NCBI RefSeq assembly: GCF_900142415.1
Contig: NZ_FRAU01000001.1
Location: 372,001 to 436,000 of the forward strand
Reading direction: 5' to 3'
Length of the DNA stretch: 64,000 nt
Origin: Rhodothermus profundi
GTDB taxonomy: Bacteria; Bacteroidota; Rhodothermia; Rhodothermales; Rhodothermaceae
Part shown: in pieces, positions 50,053-60,424 of the stretch
Position numbering within the stretch: position 1 is the stretch's first letter
Layout: each line of letters begins with the position of its first letter
Notes under the pieces: model-generated
What the model saw: only the letters and a program-made list of their open reading frames with translations
Database searches by the model: none
Told to the model about the DNA's origin: nothing
Made by a program: the position numbers and the translations under genes

Positions 50053-51414
50053 TTAGAGGAACAGCTCAATGCGGGTCGTGCCTTCGCCATCTTCTTTCTG
50101 GCGCCCCATCGTGGCCTGATGAACCGCCCGCTGGCCGGCCGAAACGTAGCGCTGATAGAGTTCTTCCGGGTCAAGAATCTCCGGCGGCGGCTGGTCGGGG
50201 TGTTGTTGATAGTGCACGGCTGCTTCCAGAAAATCGGCCAGCTTCTCCAGGGCTTCTTTGACCAGATCAATTTTCTGCCGCAGCACATCTTGAAATTGAA
50301 TGCGTCCCAGCAGATCGGCCAGCGAGCGGCTCAGCATTTCGTCGTTGAGCTGACTCACCTGGGACACCGTGTCGGAGGTCACTTCTACAATTTGCTCCAG
50401 GCATCCATTTAGCGCGGTGTTCAACGACCGCATCTGGCTGAGTTGATCGTGCTCCCGTTGCAGTTGGGCTTCGATCTGTTCGATTTCCTCCTGGATGCGC
50501 TCGCTAACCACCTGAATCTGACGCCCCATGCGCTCAGCCAGTGCGGTCGCCTGCGCGGCCAGTTGCCGCACGGCGTCGGCTACGACCGCGAATCCTTTGC
50601 CTTCTTCGCCCAGACGGGCAGCTTCAATGGCAGCATTCAGAGCCAGCAGGTTGGTTCGCCGCGCAATATCGGCCATTTCATCGACCAGCGGATCTAACTG
50701 CTCCACTTCAGAAGCCATGCTATGAATGCGCTGCAGGCTTTGCTCAATCCGCATCTGGTGCTGATCCACGAAGTCGTTCATCTGCTGGCCAGCCGCCCGG
50801 ATCGAGTCGGCCTGGTGCGTGTTGTTCTGGACCATGCGCTCCATCGAGTCAGCCAGCTTCTGGACCTGGGCAATCTGGAGCTGCGCCGCCTCATGCAGGC
50901 GCTGCAACTCGGAAACGATCTCCAGAGCGGCCTGCTCGGTCTCCTGCTGCACATGGCCCAACTGGTCTTCCAGCAACTGCAAATAGGGCTGCAGACGCTT
51001 CCAGCTCTGCATCCAGAATTGCTGAAGTGCCACCTGTGGGTCGTTGTCTGAGGTTCTGGAGGCTTCGCATTGCTCTGGAGCAGCCTCCTCCAGATGTCTG
51101 GCAGCAGCTTCCAGCGTCTGGAGGCGTTGCCGAAGCGCTTCCCGCTCCGCGAGCAGCGCTGCCCGTTCTGCTTCCCATTGCTGTTGCCGGGCCTGCCACT
51201 GGCTTTTCTGATGCGCGGCCCATGCTCGCAATGCGCGGAGAAGCTGCCATCGAACCAGCAGGCTCCCTACGCTGGCCGCCAGAGCCGCCACCAGGAGATC
51301 AGAAAGCACCCCGGCTATGCCGTTAAGCCCCAGGCCAACGGCTGCTCCGATTAATCCCCCGGTTGCGCTGCTGACCAGCAGCGCTCGTCCGTTAGCGCCT
51401 GCCAGTTCCTCCAT
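50053..51414 (-). CDS. MCP-like protein with a CheZ-like C-terminal motif
   Basis: A 453-residue protein with two N-terminal membrane helices ([34 protein letters not shown]), a long coiled coil, and an MCP signalling tip ([20 protein letters not shown]). There is no HAMP and no extracytoplasmic sensor domain. After the tip, [18 protein letters not shown] contains FQD-x3-Q with Asp376 and Gln380, the same spacing as the FQDLTGQ catalytic motif of CheZ phosphatase. It is the last gene of the chemosensory operon, 6 bases after a CheY gene. Confidence 0.88.
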
Positions 51415-51813: not shown

Positions 51814-52050
51814 TCACGGAATCCACAGCATGCCCAGCCAGCGCCGCAAGTCCGGGTCTGAGGGCACGGCTCGAACGCGAGGCTGCGCAGCCAGCAACAC
51901 CTGCAAGCAGGCCGTGTGCAGATGTCGACAGGATTTCAGGTTGACCTGTCCCCGAGGATGCTCCTGGAGCCAGCTTAGCAGCGGCTCGGCCTCCTCTACG
52001 GTTACATGGTCACGTAAGACGACGCTTCGCTTCCGGAATTCGACCGGCAT
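51814..52050 (-). CDS. Small STAS-like protein
   Basis: A 78-residue protein resembling STAS domains of anti-anti-sigma factors and sulfate transporters (RGQVNLKSCRHLHTACLQVL is the core helix-loop segment). The usual phospho-acceptor Ser appears replaced by Thr or Cys in HTACLQ. Its only Met start lies 49 bases inside the end of cheA, so translation is coupled. STAS proteins of this size occur in several chemosensory operons. The assignment rests on a short motif and is moderate. Confidence 0.65.
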   Translation of the reverse strand: MPVEFRKRSVVLRDHVTVEEAEPLLSWLQEHPRGQVNLKSCRHLHTACLQVLLAAQPRVRAVPSDPDLRRWLGMLWIP

Positions 52051-54392
52051 GATGCCAACAGCGTTTTGGGGTTTAGAATCATCAGAACGGTTCCATCGCC
52101 CAGCAGCGCTGACCCGGCATAGAGGGAAAGACCGGCCAGCACGCCGGGCAGCGGCTTCAGCACCACATCCAGGGTTTCGCGGAAGTCATCCACCAGAAGT
52201 CCCACGCGGGTGGTCTCCAACTGCAGGACCACGACAGCTAAGGTATCGGCGGCTTCGACCGAAGGTTTACATCCGTTCAGTCGATATTGCAGAGATTCCA
52301 CAGGAATTACTTGATTTCGGAGCACCAGGGCCTCCTGATGATGGATGCGCTGAATGGCTTCGGGCGCTACCCGAACCGTCTCCACGACCGCCTCAACGGG
52401 TAATCCATAGAGCTGTCCCTGCACTTCCACAATCAGCACCTGCGTGACCATCATGGACAGCGGCAGCGACAGGATGAAGCGCGTTCCCTTTCCGGGCTCA
52501 CTTTCCAGGCGCACGCTGCCGCCCAGTTGCTCTACGGTGCGCTTGACGACATCCAGTCCTACTCCCCGCCCGGAAATGTCGCTGACGCTGCTGGCCGTCG
52601 AAAACCCCGGACGAAACAGGAACTGCAACGCTTCAGCAGCGCTGATGCGCTCCAGGGCTGCTTCGTCGAGCAGGCCTTTTTCGTAAGCTTTTCGTTTGAT
52701 GACCTCTGGATCGATTCCGCGCCCGTCATCGCTTACCTCAATCCAGATGCGATCGCCTTCCTGGCGCGTGCGGATGCGCAGCAATCCTGTTTCGGGCTTT
52801 CCTCTTGCTTTTCGCTCTTCTGGCGGTTCAATTCCGTGATCCAGACTGTTGCGAATCAGGTGAATCAGTGGATCGGCCAGGCTCTCAATAATCCGTTTAT
52901 CCGCTTCGGTATCTTCTCCTATGATTTCCAGACGCACCTCTTTGCCCAGCCGACGCGCCAGATCGCGCACCAGCCGAGGAAAGCGTTGAAACACGTGTGC
53001 AAAGGGGAGCATCCGCACCTGCATGACGGCGTCCTGCAACTCCTCGGCAATGCGATGGATGGCCGCAAAATGCAGTTTGATCTCGCGGCTCAGTTCCGGC
53101 AAGTCATAGTCGCGCTGCACGCGGCTGGCCAGATACGCCAGTCCATTTTTGGCCACGACCAGCTCTCCGACCAGACTCATCAGCGCATCAATGCGTTCTT
53201 GCGAAACGCGCAGCGTCGAAGCGGTTCGCGGGCGAGCCTCGGCCGGTCGTTCATGAGAGGGAGTAGCAGGCTCCTGGGAAACAGGCGGTGCCGCAGAGCC
53301 GGTCTGGCTGGCAGGCGAACCCGCATCCGCTCGGGGAGCAACGCCAAAGACCTGATCGATCCAGCGACGCAGCGGCTCTGGATTCCGTTTCCGACGGGCT
53401 TCGTCCAGCGCTGCTTCCAGTGTGCTTTGATCGCTTTCGCGCCCCAGCACCCGCAACAGACCCTCCAGCGCTGCTTTCACGGCCTGCATCCGCCCCTCAA
53501 ATCCGTCATCAATGGGGCTTTCCAGGACGGCCCGCTGGGCTTCCAGAATCTGACCAATGGCCTCCTCTGAGACGATGGGCGGCTTCGATTCGGTCGGGGC
53601 TACGCCCGCATCTGCCGCATCCAACTGCGCTGCTACCGGCTGCAAACGTATCTGGTCGGCCACGTAGCGGAAATGCTCCTCCAGCTCTGAAAGCGGCGCT
53701 TCCGATAGCAGCTCAAAGCGAAGCACGCAGCGGTACGGATCCATCTGGTCAAGAGGAGGCCAGGGAGCCCGTGGGACAATGCGCCCCCAGCACACCCCGG
53801 GTGTCTGACGCACCAGCAGGAAGGGGTCATCCCCTTTGAAAAAGCAATCCTCTTCCGGCTCGTACACAACCCAGTAGAGCGGTCGGTCTTCCTGAAGCCG
53901 TTGCGCGGCGATTTCCTGAGCCTCCGGCGGAAGGCTTTCTATGGAGACAGCAGCCCTGCTGTGATCCGAGGCTGCCCTGAAAGCTTCCGACTCTTCTGCT
54001 GTCTTTTCTTTTCCGTCCAGCTTCTGCAGGGCCTGAATATGGCGGGTGGCTTCGTGCTCGTGGGCGGCCTGAATGCTTCCTTCTTGCTCCAGTTCGTCCA
54101 CCAGAAGGGCTACGAAGTCGAACGCTTCCAACAGGGCATCGGCCAGGTCCCTGGAGAACGTTTGCCGCCCTTCGCGCACAGCACCGATTACGTCTTCCGC
54201 CACATGCAACACCCGGGTCATAGCCGGGGCTTCTACCAGCCCGCTATTGCCCTTCAGCGTATGCACGAGCCGGAAAAGCTCATGCATAGCTTCTGCATGG
54301 TCTGGCTGGGCTTCCAGCGTCAGAATCTGCTCACTGATGCCCTGCAGCAGTTCGCGGGCCTCGATGACAAATTGTTCTACCAGGTTGCTCAT
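52002..54392 (-). CDS. cheA: Chemotaxis histidine kinase CheA
   Basis: A 796-residue CheA. The N-terminal Hpt (P1) domain has the phospho-acceptor His44 in RLVHTLKGNSGLVEAP. A region at about 165-270 (LDQMDPYRCVLRFELLSEAP) resembles an accessory domain found in many CheA proteins where P2 would be. Then come a dimerisation domain (LRVSQERIDALMSLVGELVV), the kinase core with LIHLIRNSLDHGIE, SDDGRGIDPEV and GRGVGLDVV, and the C-terminal CheW-like P5. Its start overlaps the upstream CheY stop as ATGA. Confidence 0.96.
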   Translation of the reverse strand: MSNLVEQFVIEARELLQGISEQILTLEAQPDHAEAMHELFRLVHTLKGNSGLVEAPAMTRVLHVAEDVIGAVREGRQTFSRDLADALLEAFDFVALLVDELEQEGSIQAAHEHEATRHIQALQKLDGKEKTAEESEAFRAASDHSRAAVSIESLPPEAQEIAAQRLQEDRPLYWVVYEPEEDCFFKGDDPFLLVRQTPGVCWGRIVPRAPWPPLDQMDPYRCVLRFELLSEAPLSELEEHFRYVADQIRLQPVAAQLDAADAGVAPTESKPPIVSEEAIGQILEAQRAVLESPIDDGFEGRMQAVKAALEGLLRVLGRESDQSTLEAALDEARRKRNPEPLRRWIDQVFGVAPRADAGSPASQTGSAAPPVSQEPATPSHERPAEARPRTASTLRVSQERIDALMSLVGELVVAKNGLAYLASRVQRDYDLPELSREIKLHFAAIHRIAEELQDAVMQVRMLPFAHVFQRFPRLVRDLARRLGKEVRLEIIGEDTEADKRIIESLADPLIHLIRNSLDHGIEPPEERKARGKPETGLLRIRTRQEGDRIWIEVSDDGRGIDPEVIKRKAYEKGLLDEAALERISAAEALQFLFRPGFSTASSVSDISGRGVGLDVVKRTVEQLGGSVRLESEPGKGTRFILSLPLSMMVTQVLIVEVQGQLYGLPVEAVVETVRVAPEAIQRIHHQEALVLRNQVIPVESLQYRLNGCKPSVEAADTLAVVVLQLETTRVGLLVDDFRETLDVVLKPLPGVLAGLSLYAGSALLGDGTVLMILNPKTLLASCRSNSGSEASSYVTM

Positions 54393-54763
54393 GACGGCTT
54401 CTCTCCCAGTAACAGTTGGACGTACTGGCTCAAAACGTCCGGTTTGACCGGTTTGACCAGATAAAGGTTAGCGCCGGCCTGAAAGGCCTGGCGACGGTCG
54501 ATGTCGGCGGCTTCCGTGGACACCATGATCGCCGGCGTCTGGGGTAGCTCCGGCTGTTGCCGGAGCGCTCGCAGGAATCGATACCCATCCATCTCCGGCA
54601 TATTGATGTCCACGACGTACAGGTCGTAGGGATGGGTGAGGGCCTTTTCGAGCGCTTCGACGCCGTTGTAGGCCTCATCAACAGTCAGGCCAATGGATTC
54701 CAGAATCTCTCGGTGGTACATGCGCACCGTAGGCGCATCATCCACAACCAGCACACGTTTCAT
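54389..54763 (-). CDS. cheY: CheY-like response regulator
   Basis: A 124-residue receiver with acidic DDAPT, the phospho-acceptor Asp52 in YVVDINMPEMDG, Ser or Thr in VSTEAA and Lys in YLVKPVKP. A strong ribosome-binding site (AGAGGAGAT) lies just before the start, inside the end of cheR, which it overlaps by 26 bases. It ends in an ATGA overlap with cheA. Confidence 0.93.
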   Translation of the reverse strand: MKRVLVVDDAPTVRMYHREILESIGLTVDEAYNGVEALEKALTHPYDLYVVDINMPEMDGYRFLRALRQQPELPQTPAIMVSTEAADIDRRQAFQAGANLYLVKPVKPDVLSQYVQLLLGEKPS

Positions 54764-55607
54764 AGATCTCCTCTGGTTTCTGGTACACGATGGCCTCTGG
54801 GAAACGGCGTACCTGAAACAGGGACGAAATACGGCTCATCGACTCGGAGTGCCCCAGGCACAGGTATCCGCCGGGTTCCAGCGCTTCGTACAGGTGATGC
54901 GCCGCCGTTTTGCGAGAGGCCTCATCGAAGTAAATGAGCAGATTACGACAGAAGATTACCGCGAAGTCTCGGTAGGGGCGCATTTCCTGGGCATCGCATA
55001 GATTCACGCGCGTAAAGGTCACCACTTCGCGCAGCATTTCACAGATCTGATAGTCGTTGCCTACACGCGTGAAATACTTGCGGCGCAGGTGATGGGGCAC
55101 GTGCTGCACAGAACGAGCACTGTACCGTCCCTGGCGGGCCCGTTCCAGGGCTCTGGTGTCGATGTCCGAAGCGACCAGTTCGACATCCCAGTGCTCCAGA
55201 TCGGGCCAGTATTCCAGCAGATAAATGGCAATAGAATAGGGCTCTTCCCCTGTCGAAGCCGGAATGGACCAGATGCGAATAGGCCGCCGGTCAGTGCGCC
55301 GACGGGTCAACTCTGGCAGAAGGTGCTGCACCAGGCACCGCAGCTGGTGCTCTTCGCGGAAGAAGTAGGTTTCATTAACGGTCATCAAATTGATCAGGGT
55401 CTGGAGCTCCTCTCCTGATGCCTCAAAGCGCAGGCGGGTAAAGTAGGTGCGAAAGTCCGGGGCGCCGGTTGCCTTCATGCGTTCAATCAGACGGCGATCA
55501 ACGAAGTAGCGTTTTCCTTCGTCAAAGTAGATGCCTGTCTTCCGGTAAAAGAAATCACGGAATCGTAGGAAGTCTTCGTCGCGTATGTGCAACTTTGAAG
55601 TTTGCAT
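54738..55607 (-). CDS. cheR: CheR chemoreceptor methyltransferase
   Basis: A 289-residue CheR that methylates glutamates of MCPs with SAM. The N-terminal helical domain (LHIRDEDFLRFRDFFYRKTG) precedes the Rossmann domain with NETYFFREEHQLRCL, IRIWSIPASTGEEPYSIAI (the SAM site; Ser-Ile-Pro replaces the more common Ser-Ala-Gly), VASDIDTRALERARQG and CRNLLIYFD. It has no TPR repeats. It follows the HEAT gene by 3 bases. Confidence 0.94.
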   Translation of the reverse strand: MQTSKLHIRDEDFLRFRDFFYRKTGIYFDEGKRYFVDRRLIERMKATGAPDFRTYFTRLRFEASGEELQTLINLMTVNETYFFREEHQLRCLVQHLLPELTRRRTDRRPIRIWSIPASTGEEPYSIAIYLLEYWPDLEHWDVELVASDIDTRALERARQGRYSARSVQHVPHHLRRKYFTRVGNDYQICEMLREVVTFTRVNLCDAQEMRPYRDFAVIFCRNLLIYFDEASRKTAAHHLYEALEPGGYLCLGHSESMSRISSLFQVRRFPEAIVYQKPEEIYETCAGCG

Positions 55608-55610
55608 GGT

Positions 55611-56231
55611 TCACGCTTCGCCCCCAATACGTCGCAGCGCCTGTTTCACCGCAAACTGCACGTACGGCTCATTGGCAAAGCGGCGTCTGGCTGCTTCCAG
55701 CGCCGGCCGAGCTGCTTCGGTACCGACCTCACAGAGCAGATCGATTGCTGCTGCGCAGACATTTACATGCGGGTCGTGCTCCAGCACCTGAATGAGCCAG
55801 GTTTCGGTTTGCGGCAGCGCCAGCGTTCCCAGCAGACTCAGCGTCAGGATCCGCACATCTGGATCGGGATCCTGCAGCAGTTGCTCAACCAGCGAAGCGG
55901 CTTGATCGGGATGCTGCCGCAGCGCGTCTAAGGTGGCGTTCCGCAGGGTAGCCTGGTCGCTGCGCAATCCCTGGACCAGCGCAGCCCGAGCCTCTGGCGT
56001 AGCCGCGCGGACCAGTTCCTGGAGCAGGACCTCCAGTACCGAGACGTCCGTTTCTTTTTCCAGATGGGCCATCAGATAGGAAAGCCCTTCTGGAACATCT
56101 GCTAAGCGACGCACGGCCTGGCGTCGGCGGGCAGGGTTGGGGTCCTGCAACGCCTCCTGTAGCGCAATCAGATCGTCCTCAACGGTTTCTGGAGGAAAGG
56201 ACGACGTCTGGCTGAACTTCTTCAACCCCAT
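55611..56231 (-). CDS. HEAT-repeat protein in the chemosensory operon
   Basis: A 206-residue protein, start at 56231 (MGLKKFSQTS), made of four to five HEAT/PBS-lyase-type helical repeats (DPNPARRRQAVRRLADV; RNATLDALRQHP; DPDPDVRILTLSLLGTL; DPHVNVCAAAIDLL). Such repeats form scaffolds for protein contact. The start overlaps cheB by 53 bases, and cheR starts 3 bases downstream, so it is an integral part of the operon. It may link CheB or CheR to the receptor array, an inference from position. Confidence 0.85.
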   Translation of the reverse strand: MGLKKFSQTSSFPPETVEDDLIALQEALQDPNPARRRQAVRRLADVPEGLSYLMAHLEKETDVSVLEVLLQELVRAATPEARAALVQGLRSDQATLRNATLDALRQHPDQAASLVEQLLQDPDPDVRILTLSLLGTLALPQTETWLIQVLEHDPHVNVCAAAIDLLCEVGTEAARPALEAARRRFANEPYVQFAVKQALRRIGGEA

Positions 56232-57315
56232 GGCGTCCGGCTGGTTGAATCCACCGGATGAGTTGATCGGCAATCTTTTCGGCCGGTAGGATCTTGGTTG
56301 CACCTCCGCGCTTGATCACCTCGGCCGGCATGCCAAAAACCACTGCCGACCGTTCGGATTCGGCAATGACCCGCCCGCCCTGCCGGCGAATCTCGGTGAA
56401 GGCGTCTGCGCCATCGTAGCCCATACCGGTCAGCATGACGGCAACGATCTGGCGAGGCTCAACGTAGCGCAACGCCGAACGTCCCAGCAGCTCAACCGAG
56501 GGATGCCACAGATAATCAGGATGCGCCGGGCGGGCCAGCGCAATCAACTGCGTGCCGCGGCGGCTGATCACCAGATCCGCTTCCCCCTTGCCGATGTAAA
56601 CGGTTCCGGCTTCCAACGGCATAGGCCGCGCCACTTCTACCACGTGCACCGCGCAAAGCCGATCCAGCCGCTGGGCAAATGGCCCGGTAAAAGCGGCCGG
56701 CATATGCTGCGCTACCAGCACCGGCCAGGGAAAATCGGCGGGCAACTTGGGCAGAATCTCCTCCAGTGTTGCCGGACCTCCGGTTGAGACGCCAATGAGG
56801 ACCACGCCTTGCTCTTTTGCCGGCCGCGTGCGCGTGCGAGCAGGTCGAACCGGAGTGGTAACGGAGGGGCTCGCCTTCTGCACGCCCGTTCCGACCGTAG
56901 CTTGAGGCTTTCGCCGGCGCAAACGCGCTGTCGCTGCCGCCCGCACTTTAGCAATCAATTCTTCACGCACGGCCTCCAGCGACAGCGTAATCGTACCGCC
57001 TGGTTTGGCTACATAGTCGACGGCCCCCAGGTTCAGCGCCTCGAAGGTAGCCAGAGCCCCCTCCTGGGTCAGCGACGAAAACATGACCACGGGCACGGGC
57101 CGCTCCGCCATGATATGCGCCAGGGCGGTCAGCCCGTCCATACGCGGCATATGAATATCAAGCGTAATGACGTCGGGCTCGAAAGACCGATTGAGTTCAA
57201 TCGCTTCGGTTCCATCACGCGCTGTTCGAATCTCAAATCCGCCGGCTTCTTCGAACAGACGCGTCAACTGCCGCCGCATCAGGGCGGAATCATCAACGAT
57301 CAACAATCGAATCAT
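56179..57315 (-). CDS. cheB: CheB receptor methylesterase
   Basis: A 378-residue CheB that removes methyl groups or deamidates MCPs when phosphorylated. The receiver domain (Asp53 in VITLDIHMPRMDG) is followed by a basic linker and the esterase domain with catalytic Ser177 in IGVSTGGPATL, His in VAQHMPAAFTGPFAQRL and Asp in AVMLTGMGYDGADA. The start overlaps the CheW gene as ATGA. Confidence 0.95.
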   Translation of the reverse strand: MIRLLIVDDSALMRRQLTRLFEEAGGFEIRTARDGTEAIELNRSFEPDVITLDIHMPRMDGLTALAHIMAERPVPVVMFSSLTQEGALATFEALNLGAVDYVAKPGGTITLSLEAVREELIAKVRAAATARLRRRKPQATVGTGVQKASPSVTTPVRPARTRTRPAKEQGVVLIGVSTGGPATLEEILPKLPADFPWPVLVAQHMPAAFTGPFAQRLDRLCAVHVVEVARPMPLEAGTVYIGKGEADLVISRRGTQLIALARPAHPDYLWHPSVELLGRSALRYVEPRQIVAVMLTGMGYDGADAFTEIRRQGGRVIAESERSAVVFGMPAEVIKRGGATKILPAEKIADQLIRWIQPAGRHGVEEVQPDVVLSSRNR

Positions 57316-58334
57316 ACGGCTGTCGCTAATGAGTGAGCAGGGATGCGCACCTGCGCCAGCAGTTGCTCGGGTTGCAGTAGCTGCACAATCTGTCCCCGGT
57401 CGGCCAGATGGATCACCTGGTCCCTTAATGGGCTGGCGGCTTCTGCTGGACGAGCGGCTGGTTGCAACGCGCTTTCCGGCACCTCACAGACCTCAATAAC
57501 TGCATCAACGATGAATCCGGTAGGCTGCTCGTCGGCAAGCAGCACCACAATGCGCTGCTGAGGCGTCCGCTCTGTCACGGGAAAGCCAAGTTGCTGGCGC
57601 AAGTCTACCACGGGCAGCACGCCGCCCCGCAGGTTGACCACTCCCACAATCGCTGGAGGTGCCTGGGGAACGACTGTGTATGTCTCGGGAGGCTCCACGA
57701 TTTCCTGCACATAGTCAATGGAAACGCCAAATACTTCGGTGCCCAGTCGGAAAAAGAGAAAGCTCTGCCCTTCTGTTTCGGCCTCTTCCGGCGAAGCGGC
57801 TTTTTCCTCTTCAGAAACGGCATCGTACCCCCAGGCAGCCGCTTCATCCAGCGCAATGCGTCGCAGCAGGCGTCGAAGATCCAGCAGGCTCAGCAGCCGT
57901 TCTCCTTCCACCCGACAGACGGCGACAATTTCCTCATAGGTAGACTCCTGCTGCAGCGAGGCGGGTGGCTGCTCCAGCGCGTCAGGCGGCAGGCTCCGCA
58001 CTTCATGTACCTGGTCAACTCCCAGGCCGAGACGACGTCCACCTGCCTGCAGCACCAGGACACAGGCTGGCTGATCCGCGCACTCCAGTTCAAACAGACG
58101 AGCCAGCAACACTACCGGAATCGTCTCGCGTCGCAGCGTCATCAAGCCAGCCAGCCAGGTAGGAGCTTGCGGAATAGGCGTAATGTGCTCTGGCCAGGCG
58201 ACCACTTCCTGCACCCAGTGCACCGGCAGGGCATACCGCTGGCCTCCAACGACAAACTGCACCACCTGCGGTTCTTCCTCTTCTGCCTGGGCAAGCGCCT
58301 CCCCAAAGAGTTCCTTTAACGTGTCCGGACCCAT
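57312..58334 (-). CDS. Double-CheW coupling protein
   Basis: A 340-residue protein with two CheW domains, one at about residues 22-165 (QVVQFVVGGQRYALPVHWVQ) and one at about 195-335 (LFFRLGTEVFGVSIDYVQ, then GVVNLRGGVLPVVDLRQQLG), joined by an acidic linker. CheW links CheA to receptors; a tandem form could bridge two receptors or two array rings. The ATG at 58334 is the right start: upstream codons in the open frame are antisense-like and overlap the MCP gene. Confidence 0.9.
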   Translation of the reverse strand: MGPDTLKELFGEALAQAEEEEPQVVQFVVGGQRYALPVHWVQEVVAWPEHITPIPQAPTWLAGLMTLRRETIPVVLLARLFELECADQPACVLVLQAGGRRLGLGVDQVHEVRSLPPDALEQPPASLQQESTYEEIVAVCRVEGERLLSLLDLRRLLRRIALDEAAAWGYDAVSEEEKAASPEEAETEGQSFLFFRLGTEVFGVSIDYVQEIVEPPETYTVVPQAPPAIVGVVNLRGGVLPVVDLRQQLGFPVTERTPQQRIVVLLADEQPTGFIVDAVIEVCEVPESALQPAARPAEAASPLRDQVIHLADRGQIVQLLQPEQLLAQVRIPAHSLATAV

Positions 58335-58347
58335 AGGCGGTATCGGT

Positions 58348-60255
58348 TCAATGGCTTTGAAGTTCGTCGGCCAGCACCGCGATTTCTTCCACTGCCGCAG
58401 CCAGCGATTCCATTCCCTGGGCCTGCTCATGGGCTGCACTGGCTGCTTCACTGGTTGCCTGTTCGGCTTCCTGAGCAGCAGCGGCGATCTGATCAACACC
58501 TGTGCGCACCTGTGCAATCGCGGTGGCAATGCGCTCGGCTTCGCGCAGGATAGCTTCAGCTCCTGCGTGCACCTGTGCCATTTCCTGATCCAGCCGTTGC
58601 AGGCTGCGCGTAACGGCCTGCGCCTTTTCGGCCTCGGCAACCGTTCGCGCCATCAACTCCTCGACATCGCGGGCTACTGTCTGGATATGATCCTGAATGG
58701 TGCGCAGGGTGTCTTTGATGCGGTCTGCATTGTCGGCTGAATCGTGCGCCAGGTTGCGAATATCGGCAGCCACGACGGCAAAGCCTTTGCCAAACTCGCC
58801 GGCTCGTGCTGCTTCAATCGCACCGCTAACGGCCAGCATGCTGGTCTGAATGGCCACCATCGTAATGGCATCCACGATCTTGTCGATGCGGCGCGAACGC
58901 AGCTCTAGCTGTTTGATGCGTTCCAGGCTTTGCTCAACGCGTCCAACCGCCTGCTCAATGCTGGCTATCAGGGCTTCGACGGCCTTACGGTTCTGCGTCA
59001 GGCGCCGCTGTTGCGCCTCCAACCGTTCTTGCCCCTCCTGCGCCTGCTGCCGGGCTACCTCCAGGCCCTTTTCGATCTCGGCGATGGCGGCGGCCGACTC
59101 TTCGGTAGCGGCCGCCTGCGTCTGCGCTCCCTTGCGAATTTGCTCGATAGCTGCTGAGATCTGGGCAGCCGCCCGGGTCATCTCATCCAGCGCAGCCGAC
59201 AGTTCCTCGGCCGCCGTCGCCACATCACTCGCACTTTTGCTCAGATCTGTCGAAAGCTTGAGATCCTCGGCCAGTTCGGAGAGGTTTTCGGCCGACTGTT
59301 CGCACTCGGCCAGCACCTGCACCTGTTCGCTGACGGTGCGGCTCCACTCTTCAACCGCCGCTGACTGCTCTTCGGCGGCTGCGGCAATCTCGTCAAATCC
59401 GCGCAACGCCTCTCGCACAGCCTCTTCGGAACGCGCCGCGCCTTCGGCAACCTCTTGCGCCCCCTGCACAATGCGCAGAAATCCTTCTCCAATTGTCGCC
59501 AGTTCTTCTCCGATTTGTTGCCCTTTTTGCGCTTCTTCCTGAATGGCTTCGGCCGCAGCCGTGATGCTTTGCACCACTTGCTGCACGTCGGCCTGAATCT
59601 GTGTAATCAGCTCCTGAATCTGACGAGCACTCTTTTCGGACGTCTCGGCCAACGTGCGCACCTCGCCGGCCACTACGGCAAACCCTTTCCCATGCTTGCC
59701 GGCCCGCGCGGCCTCAATAGCGGCGTTCAGCGCCAGCAGATTGGTCTGATTCGCAATGCGACTTACGGCCTGGATCACCTCACCAATCTGGGCAGCCTGC
59801 TGCTCCAGCTCAGCTACCCGGGCCACCGAACGTTGCTGGCGCTCGGCGGCCATCACCACATTCTGGATCAGATGTTCAACCTGCTCCCGAACCTGCTCAG
59901 CCAGTGCCTGCAACGCCTCGCTTTTCTCTTGCGCCTGCTGAGCAGCCATCCGCTGACGTTCCACGGCTTTCCCCACTTCCCGAAACGCCGCCAGCGACTC
60001 CTGCGTAGCCCCCGAAGCCTCTGTGGCTCCAGCAGCAATCTGATCGGCCGCACTCTTTAATTCCTGGGCGGCGGAGGCCGCCTCGCTGATACCAGAAGCT
60101 AACTGAACTGCTGCCGCGGCAATGCGCTCGGCCAGTTGCTGCCGCCGAGCCATCGTACGCGCCCGGCGACGTTGCTGCGCTGCTTCCCGCGCCGTTGCAC
60201 GCGGTGCCACCTCGGTGCCATCAGACTCCGAATGCGTCTTGCGTACAAAGGGCAT
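58348..60255 (-). CDS. Soluble MCP with two signalling tips
   Basis: A 635-residue coiled-coil protein with no membrane helix, HAMP or sensor domain. It contains two MCP hairpin tips: the first at about residues 165-190 ([18 protein letters not shown]), the second at about 465-490 ([18 protein letters not shown], followed by [16 protein letters not shown]). Between and around them are long Ala/Glu/Gln heptads. The second tip matches a subclass known from alphaproteobacterial and cyanobacterial receptors. It is the first gene of the ten-gene operon and lies 6 bases after a Shine-Dalgarno sequence within the leader structure at 60262-60310. Confidence 0.9.
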
Positions 60256-60261
60256 AGGAAT

Positions 60262-60310
60262 CTTCCTGCGGGTTTTTACTTACAGATTTTTCCCGCAGGA
60301 AGGAAAAATC
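60262..60310 (-). promoter_or_regulatory. Structured operon leader enclosing the ribosome-binding site
   Basis: Read on the minus strand, GATTTTTCC (60310-60302) pairs with GGAAAAATC (60293-60285). The eight-base loop between them, TTCCTGCG (60301-60294), is an exact complement of CGCAGGAA (60270-60263). The last segment contains the AGGAAG ribosome-binding site (60267-60262) six bases before the ATG. The parts can form either an H-type pseudoknot with an A-rich 14-base connector or two competing hairpins (the longer an 11-bp stem, 60302-60292 with 60272-60262). A TATGCT box at 60320-60315 could place the transcript start at the first arm. Confidence 0.65.
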
Positions 60311-60424
60311 CAAAAGCATACCAGCCTGAAGTGTTGAGGCCAGACTCCGCTTTTTCTATACTGTTTGATTGAATGGCCTGGGTATCTGCCCGCGTTGTTG
60401 CTTCGATTTTCAGGCAAACTTTTC

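Follow-up and report, generated by a model that had tools for sequence, protein, structure and literature searches.

Hairpins that occlude the ribosome-binding site (RBS) are well-known, ordinary control elements. RBS-sequestering hairpins have been documented for the phage T4 genes e, soc, 49 and I-TevI, and the native late transcript of gene e avoids the inhibitory structure (PMC3014915). RNA thermometers of the ROSE and fourU types also hold the Shine–Dalgarno (SD) sequence within a stem, and the preQ1-I and SAM-II riboswitches occupy short leaders near the start codon. In Rhodothermus marinus no SD logo was reported (PMC3155529). We analysed a window of 64,000 nucleotides, the whole stretch of Rhodothermus profundi DNA presented above, and found at the head of a chemosensory operon a hairpin that probably hides the ribosome landing site and limits translation. 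It resembles the T4 hairpins in masking the ribosome-binding region with a simple stem and no ligand, and differs from them in belonging to a cellular chemosensory operon of a thermophile with little SD use. The element type is ordinary, and the present hairpin has good comparative support.

The operon leader runs from 60424 to 60256 on the minus strand, and direct reading of that strand confirmed, at the positions below, the inverted repeats described by the initial annotation. The leader was compared with orthologous leaders from three genomes of the same genus (G003, G005 and G006; n=4 with this one). The features are as follows.

60308–60322, minus strand: promoter-like box GGTATGCTTTTGGAT, four-species consensus GGyATGCTTTTnGrT, kept in every leader compared
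60285–60310, minus strand: competing 9-bp hairpin with loop TTCCTGCG, species-specific, not conserved in G003 and G006
60292–60302, minus strand: 5′ arm CTTCCTGCGGG of the conserved hairpin, in which 4 of 11 positions covary with the 3′ arm
60273–60291, minus strand: hairpin loop, A-rich and unstructured, 19 nt by direct reading (26, 15 and 16 nt in the orthologues)
60262–60272, minus strand: 3′ arm CCCGCAGGAAG, including the AGGA ribosome-binding element at 60267–60264, supported by covariation
58348–60255, minus strand: first gene, a soluble chemoreceptor with an MCP signalling domain, 635 aa, with a conserved N-terminus
52002–58640, minus strand: rest of the operon, encoding CheW-type, CheB, HEAT-repeat, CheR, CheY-like receiver and CheA proteins

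The 9-bp stem pairs GATTTTTCC (60310–60302) with GGAAAAATC (60293–60285), and its loop (60301–60294) is an exact complement of CGCAGGAA (60270–60263); the 11-bp stem pairs the two arms listed above. The pseudoknot helix proposed initially and the alternative stem overlap: all eight loop–SD pairs of the former belong to the 11 pairs of the long stem, which leaves at most two competing structures, not three. The start codon (ATG, 60255–60253) is well supported, since the N-terminus MPFVRK or MPLVRK of the chemoreceptor aligns with MALVKK of two Thermodesulfovibrio homologues (55–58% identity).

We found that the long stem is kept in all four leaders. It consists of CTTCCTGCAGT/ACTGCAGGAAG in G006, of CTTCCTGCAGC/ACTGCAGGAAG in G003, with a single mismatch at the loop end, and of CTTCCCTGTGG/CCACCGGGAAG in G005, again with a single mismatch. 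Orthologues of the first gene have 92% protein identity to this genome, and their four-fold sites are only 47–49% identical, indicating that the stem match is not mere recent ancestry. To count covariation, the two arms were aligned ungapped by hand around the stem and the variable-length loops were removed. Across the four leaders 95.5% of cells were paired, and both sides had changed at 4 of the 11 pairs, one of them in two different ways. The covariation score was reached by 1 of 500 shuffles, and pairing fell to 30–58% when the partner was slid by 1–3 columns; with four sequences from one genus and a hand-made alignment, these numbers are supportive, not final. Furthermore, a model built from three leaders recovered the fourth (23 bits, E 3.5e-4 in 28 kb). 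The 11-bp stem thus passed the test of compensatory changes suggested by the initial annotation, and the proposal that the leader can bury its ribosome-binding region was borne out, as the stem includes AGGA and its changes are compensated in the orthologues. A stem with covariation support that lies over the SD and start region is what is expected of a cis-acting RBS-occluding hairpin.

The loop was not conserved: its lengths differ by up to 11 nt and it shows no conserved sequence, which fits an RNA hairpin and not a DNA operator with two half-sites. In such an operator the inverted repeat would bind a transcription factor dimer and form no RNA structure; its symmetric half-sites would adjoin the promoter-like box, as they do here, and changes in both halves would be expected there too. 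However, the spacing between the halves is not constant, the half-site centres lying 30, 37, 26 and 27 bp apart (loops of 19, 26, 15 and 16 nt) with no fixed helical phase. In addition, the 3′ half extends into the region where translation starts, and no convincing further copies were found in the genus. We regard an operator as very improbable.

The rarity of such a hairpin was examined in a 464-kb sample of this genome, window included, with 330 gene leaders. Perfect 11-bp inverted repeats with loops of 3–30 numbered 33 in the 464 kb against 2–5 in Markov sequence, indicating that the long stem is not due to chance. Among the 330 leaders this was the sole one with a perfect stem of at least 10 bp reaching to within 7 nt of the start codon. 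Two 13-bp stems in other leaders end at −19 and −20; one of these, with its T run, resembles a terminator belonging to the preceding gene. The region before the chemoreceptor start had the fifth lowest accessibility of the 330 leaders at 65 °C. An SD sequence was present in 13% of leaders against a background of 10% (464 kb, starts chosen without regard to SD); with almost no SD enrichment in the genome, in keeping with the missing SD logo of R. marinus, occlusion of the entire initiation region may count for more than that of AGGA itself. Seven genomes of the genus were searched with a sequence pattern and a covariance model, and no convincing further copy of the hairpin, and thus no regulon, was found.

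Folding predictions placed the long stem at 98–99% of the ensemble from 37 to 65 °C in this species and at more than 90% formed at 65 °C in all four. These predictions bear on the suggestion that the leader is a thermosensor opening at high growth temperature. A hairpin that sits over the start region in a thermophile would suit such a role, the stems of G003 and G005 are weaker, and that of G005 was predicted to be partly open at 75 °C, when the others were closed, and about half open by 80 °C. However, with energy parameters extrapolated for high temperature, closure at 80 °C was still predicted to be 92–97% in this genome and G006, and no melting point is shared between the species. Thus, in comparison with ROSE and fourU elements, the present stem is perfect and GC-rich, has a large loop, lacks a shared melting point and is predicted to be closed at growth temperature. 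The predicted closure at 65 °C in all four species speaks against the thermosensor, and a simple thermometer appears very unlikely.

We then considered the 9-bp stem, from which the initial annotation had derived an H-type pseudoknot or a small translational riboswitch like preQ1-I or SAM-II. The exact complementarity of its loop to the ribosome-binding region and the A-rich connector are features of this one sequence. Pairing across the four leaders was 65.7%, close to slid and shuffled controls, with no covariation above them. The predicted energy of this early stem was −1.5 kcal/mol in G006 and 0 kcal/mol in G003, which amounts to nothing there, and G005 had a shorter, shifted analogue (−8.1 kcal/mol) over the same loop. 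Moreover, a zero-base connector cannot span an 8-bp helix, a difficulty that the initial annotation had raised as well, so that the full pseudoknot is sterically implausible. No Rfam match was obtained at the gathering score, and a permissive search returned chance-level hits to unrelated families. Whereas preQ1-I and SAM-II have conserved aptamer bases, the present leaders share no conserved unpaired nucleotides, their loop varies in length and the pseudoknot stem is unconserved. With no conserved loop, no Rfam match and no further copy found in the genus, the riboswitch lacks support, and we consider either form of this proposal extremely improbable.

The more cautious part of the same proposal, an on/off pair of hairpins, does not extend to G003 and G006, which lack the early stem. 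Such a pair could exist at most in this species, where both stems are present, and perhaps in G005. In a two-state switch of this kind the weak early hairpin (60310–60285) would be the first to fold as the RNA is transcribed and would delay the SD-burying stem or compete with it, which would open a time window or allow a regulated choice. The two stems are mutually exclusive, with predicted energies at 37 °C of −11.9 kcal/mol (early) and −19.4 kcal/mol (long), and the analogue in G005 is consistent with the idea. Nevertheless, the dominance of the long stem in the predicted ensemble, the loss of the early stem from two species and its control-level covariation leave little likelihood for a two-state switch.

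To place the hairpin on a transcript, we examined the DNA upstream of it. The promoter-like box lies a fixed 16–17 nt (counted from its ATG) before the hairpin in all four species, and it is conserved although the remaining intergenic DNA is not. Elsewhere in the genus the box occurred in two places besides those before these operons. In G005 (contig C65) the sugar transferase gene is separated from the box by about 1 kb of unrelated, repeat-rich sequence, with box and hairpin intact. We infer that the box is an extended −10 element (TGG-TATGCT, hexamer 60320–60315) and that transcription would start near 60310–60303; if so, the 5′ end of the mRNA falls shortly ahead of the 5′ arm, and the hairpin is transcribed in full. 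A general −10 motif was not clearly enriched across the 330 leaders of this genome, and the literature offered nothing usable on a chemoreceptor-leader thermometer or a Rhodothermus promoter map. Several other candidates were rejected. Sigma-54 and sigma-28 promoters misfit in spacing and sequence when read by eye. A leader peptide from the conserved upstream ATG (60319) is not conserved, since its frame differs between species (distances to the main ATG of 1, 1, 2 and 0 modulo 3 by hand count) and in G005 the frame ends after some 10 codons. An intrinsic terminator of the upstream gene would have a T run after its GC stem, whereas the stem here is followed by ATTCCTATG.

The gene upstream of the operon encodes a bacterial sugar transferase, and the main rival to translational control is that the hairpin insulates the operon against read-through from it. 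On this reading only read-through transcripts from the sugar transferase gene would carry the whole hairpin and stay untranslated, whereas transcripts from the operon's own promoter would have their 5′ ends within or beyond the 5′ arm and be freely translated, as in gene e of phage T4. From the upstream stop (about 60425) to the hairpin this strand showed no terminator-like site, which makes read-through plausible, and hairpins of this type are documented for the T4 genes e, soc, 49 and I-TevI (PMC3014915). Unlike in T4 gene e, however, the conserved box would put the transcription start before the 5′ arm, and the hairpin is kept in G005 despite about 1 kb of other DNA between the genes. Insulation is accordingly an unlikely account of the hairpin.

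The reading we prefer, and consider likely, is that a 5′-terminal RBS-occluding hairpin following a promoter-like box limits translation of the first gene. Transcription would begin from the conserved box just upstream, and the chemosensory mRNA would carry a single hairpin at its 5′ terminus. The 11-bp stem of this hairpin, CUUCCUGCGGG with CCCGCAGGAAG, covers −47 to −7 before the AUG, AGGA included, and is the dominant predicted fold, closed at 65 °C. With the hairpin formed, the 30S subunit would be denied access to the start, and synthesis of the chemoreceptor would be low or conditional; release would depend on breathing of the stem, on a helicase, or on a protein or RNA acting in trans. 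Neither a ligand pocket nor a pseudoknot is necessary. In a genome that hardly uses SD sequences an unstructured start should matter more, and a stem over −47 to −7 would therefore be expected to inhibit strongly.

The distribution of the operon gives this control a setting. Among the sampled genomes of the phylum the first gene was found only in Rhodothermus (search at E 1e-100), and it is missing from three other Rhodothermus genomes. Beyond this genus, the closest relatives found were in Thermodesulfovibrio, with 55–58% identity and the same MCP-CheW-CheB order, suggesting that the operon is likely shared with Nitrospirota by horizontal transfer, in either direction. The Thermodesulfovibrio leaders are open and carry GGAGG, and no such hairpin was seen in them by eye nor any convincing model match; the hairpin thus appears specific to the Rhodothermus side. 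Several features of the operon itself are also worth recording. The soluble chemoreceptor (58348–60255) matches the MCP signalling domain twice, at separate places, which is an unusual layout for one protein. The HEAT-repeat protein (55611–56303) is encoded between cheB and cheR, its open frame overlapping the end of cheB, and a second MCP-domain protein (50053–51414) lies on the same strand just downstream of cheA.

A more specific idea, to which we give a small chance, is that the hairpin is a dedicated switch, opened by a trans-acting factor, that gates a horizontally shared operon in SD-poor Rhodothermus, with the competing stem adding co-transcriptional timing in this species. Leader RNAs described in Rhodothermota seem few, and the RBS-occluding hairpin would be a covariation-supported translational control element in a group with weak SD-led initiation. 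Were it regulated, it would reveal how the host holds down or turns on an apparently transferred chemosensory operon.
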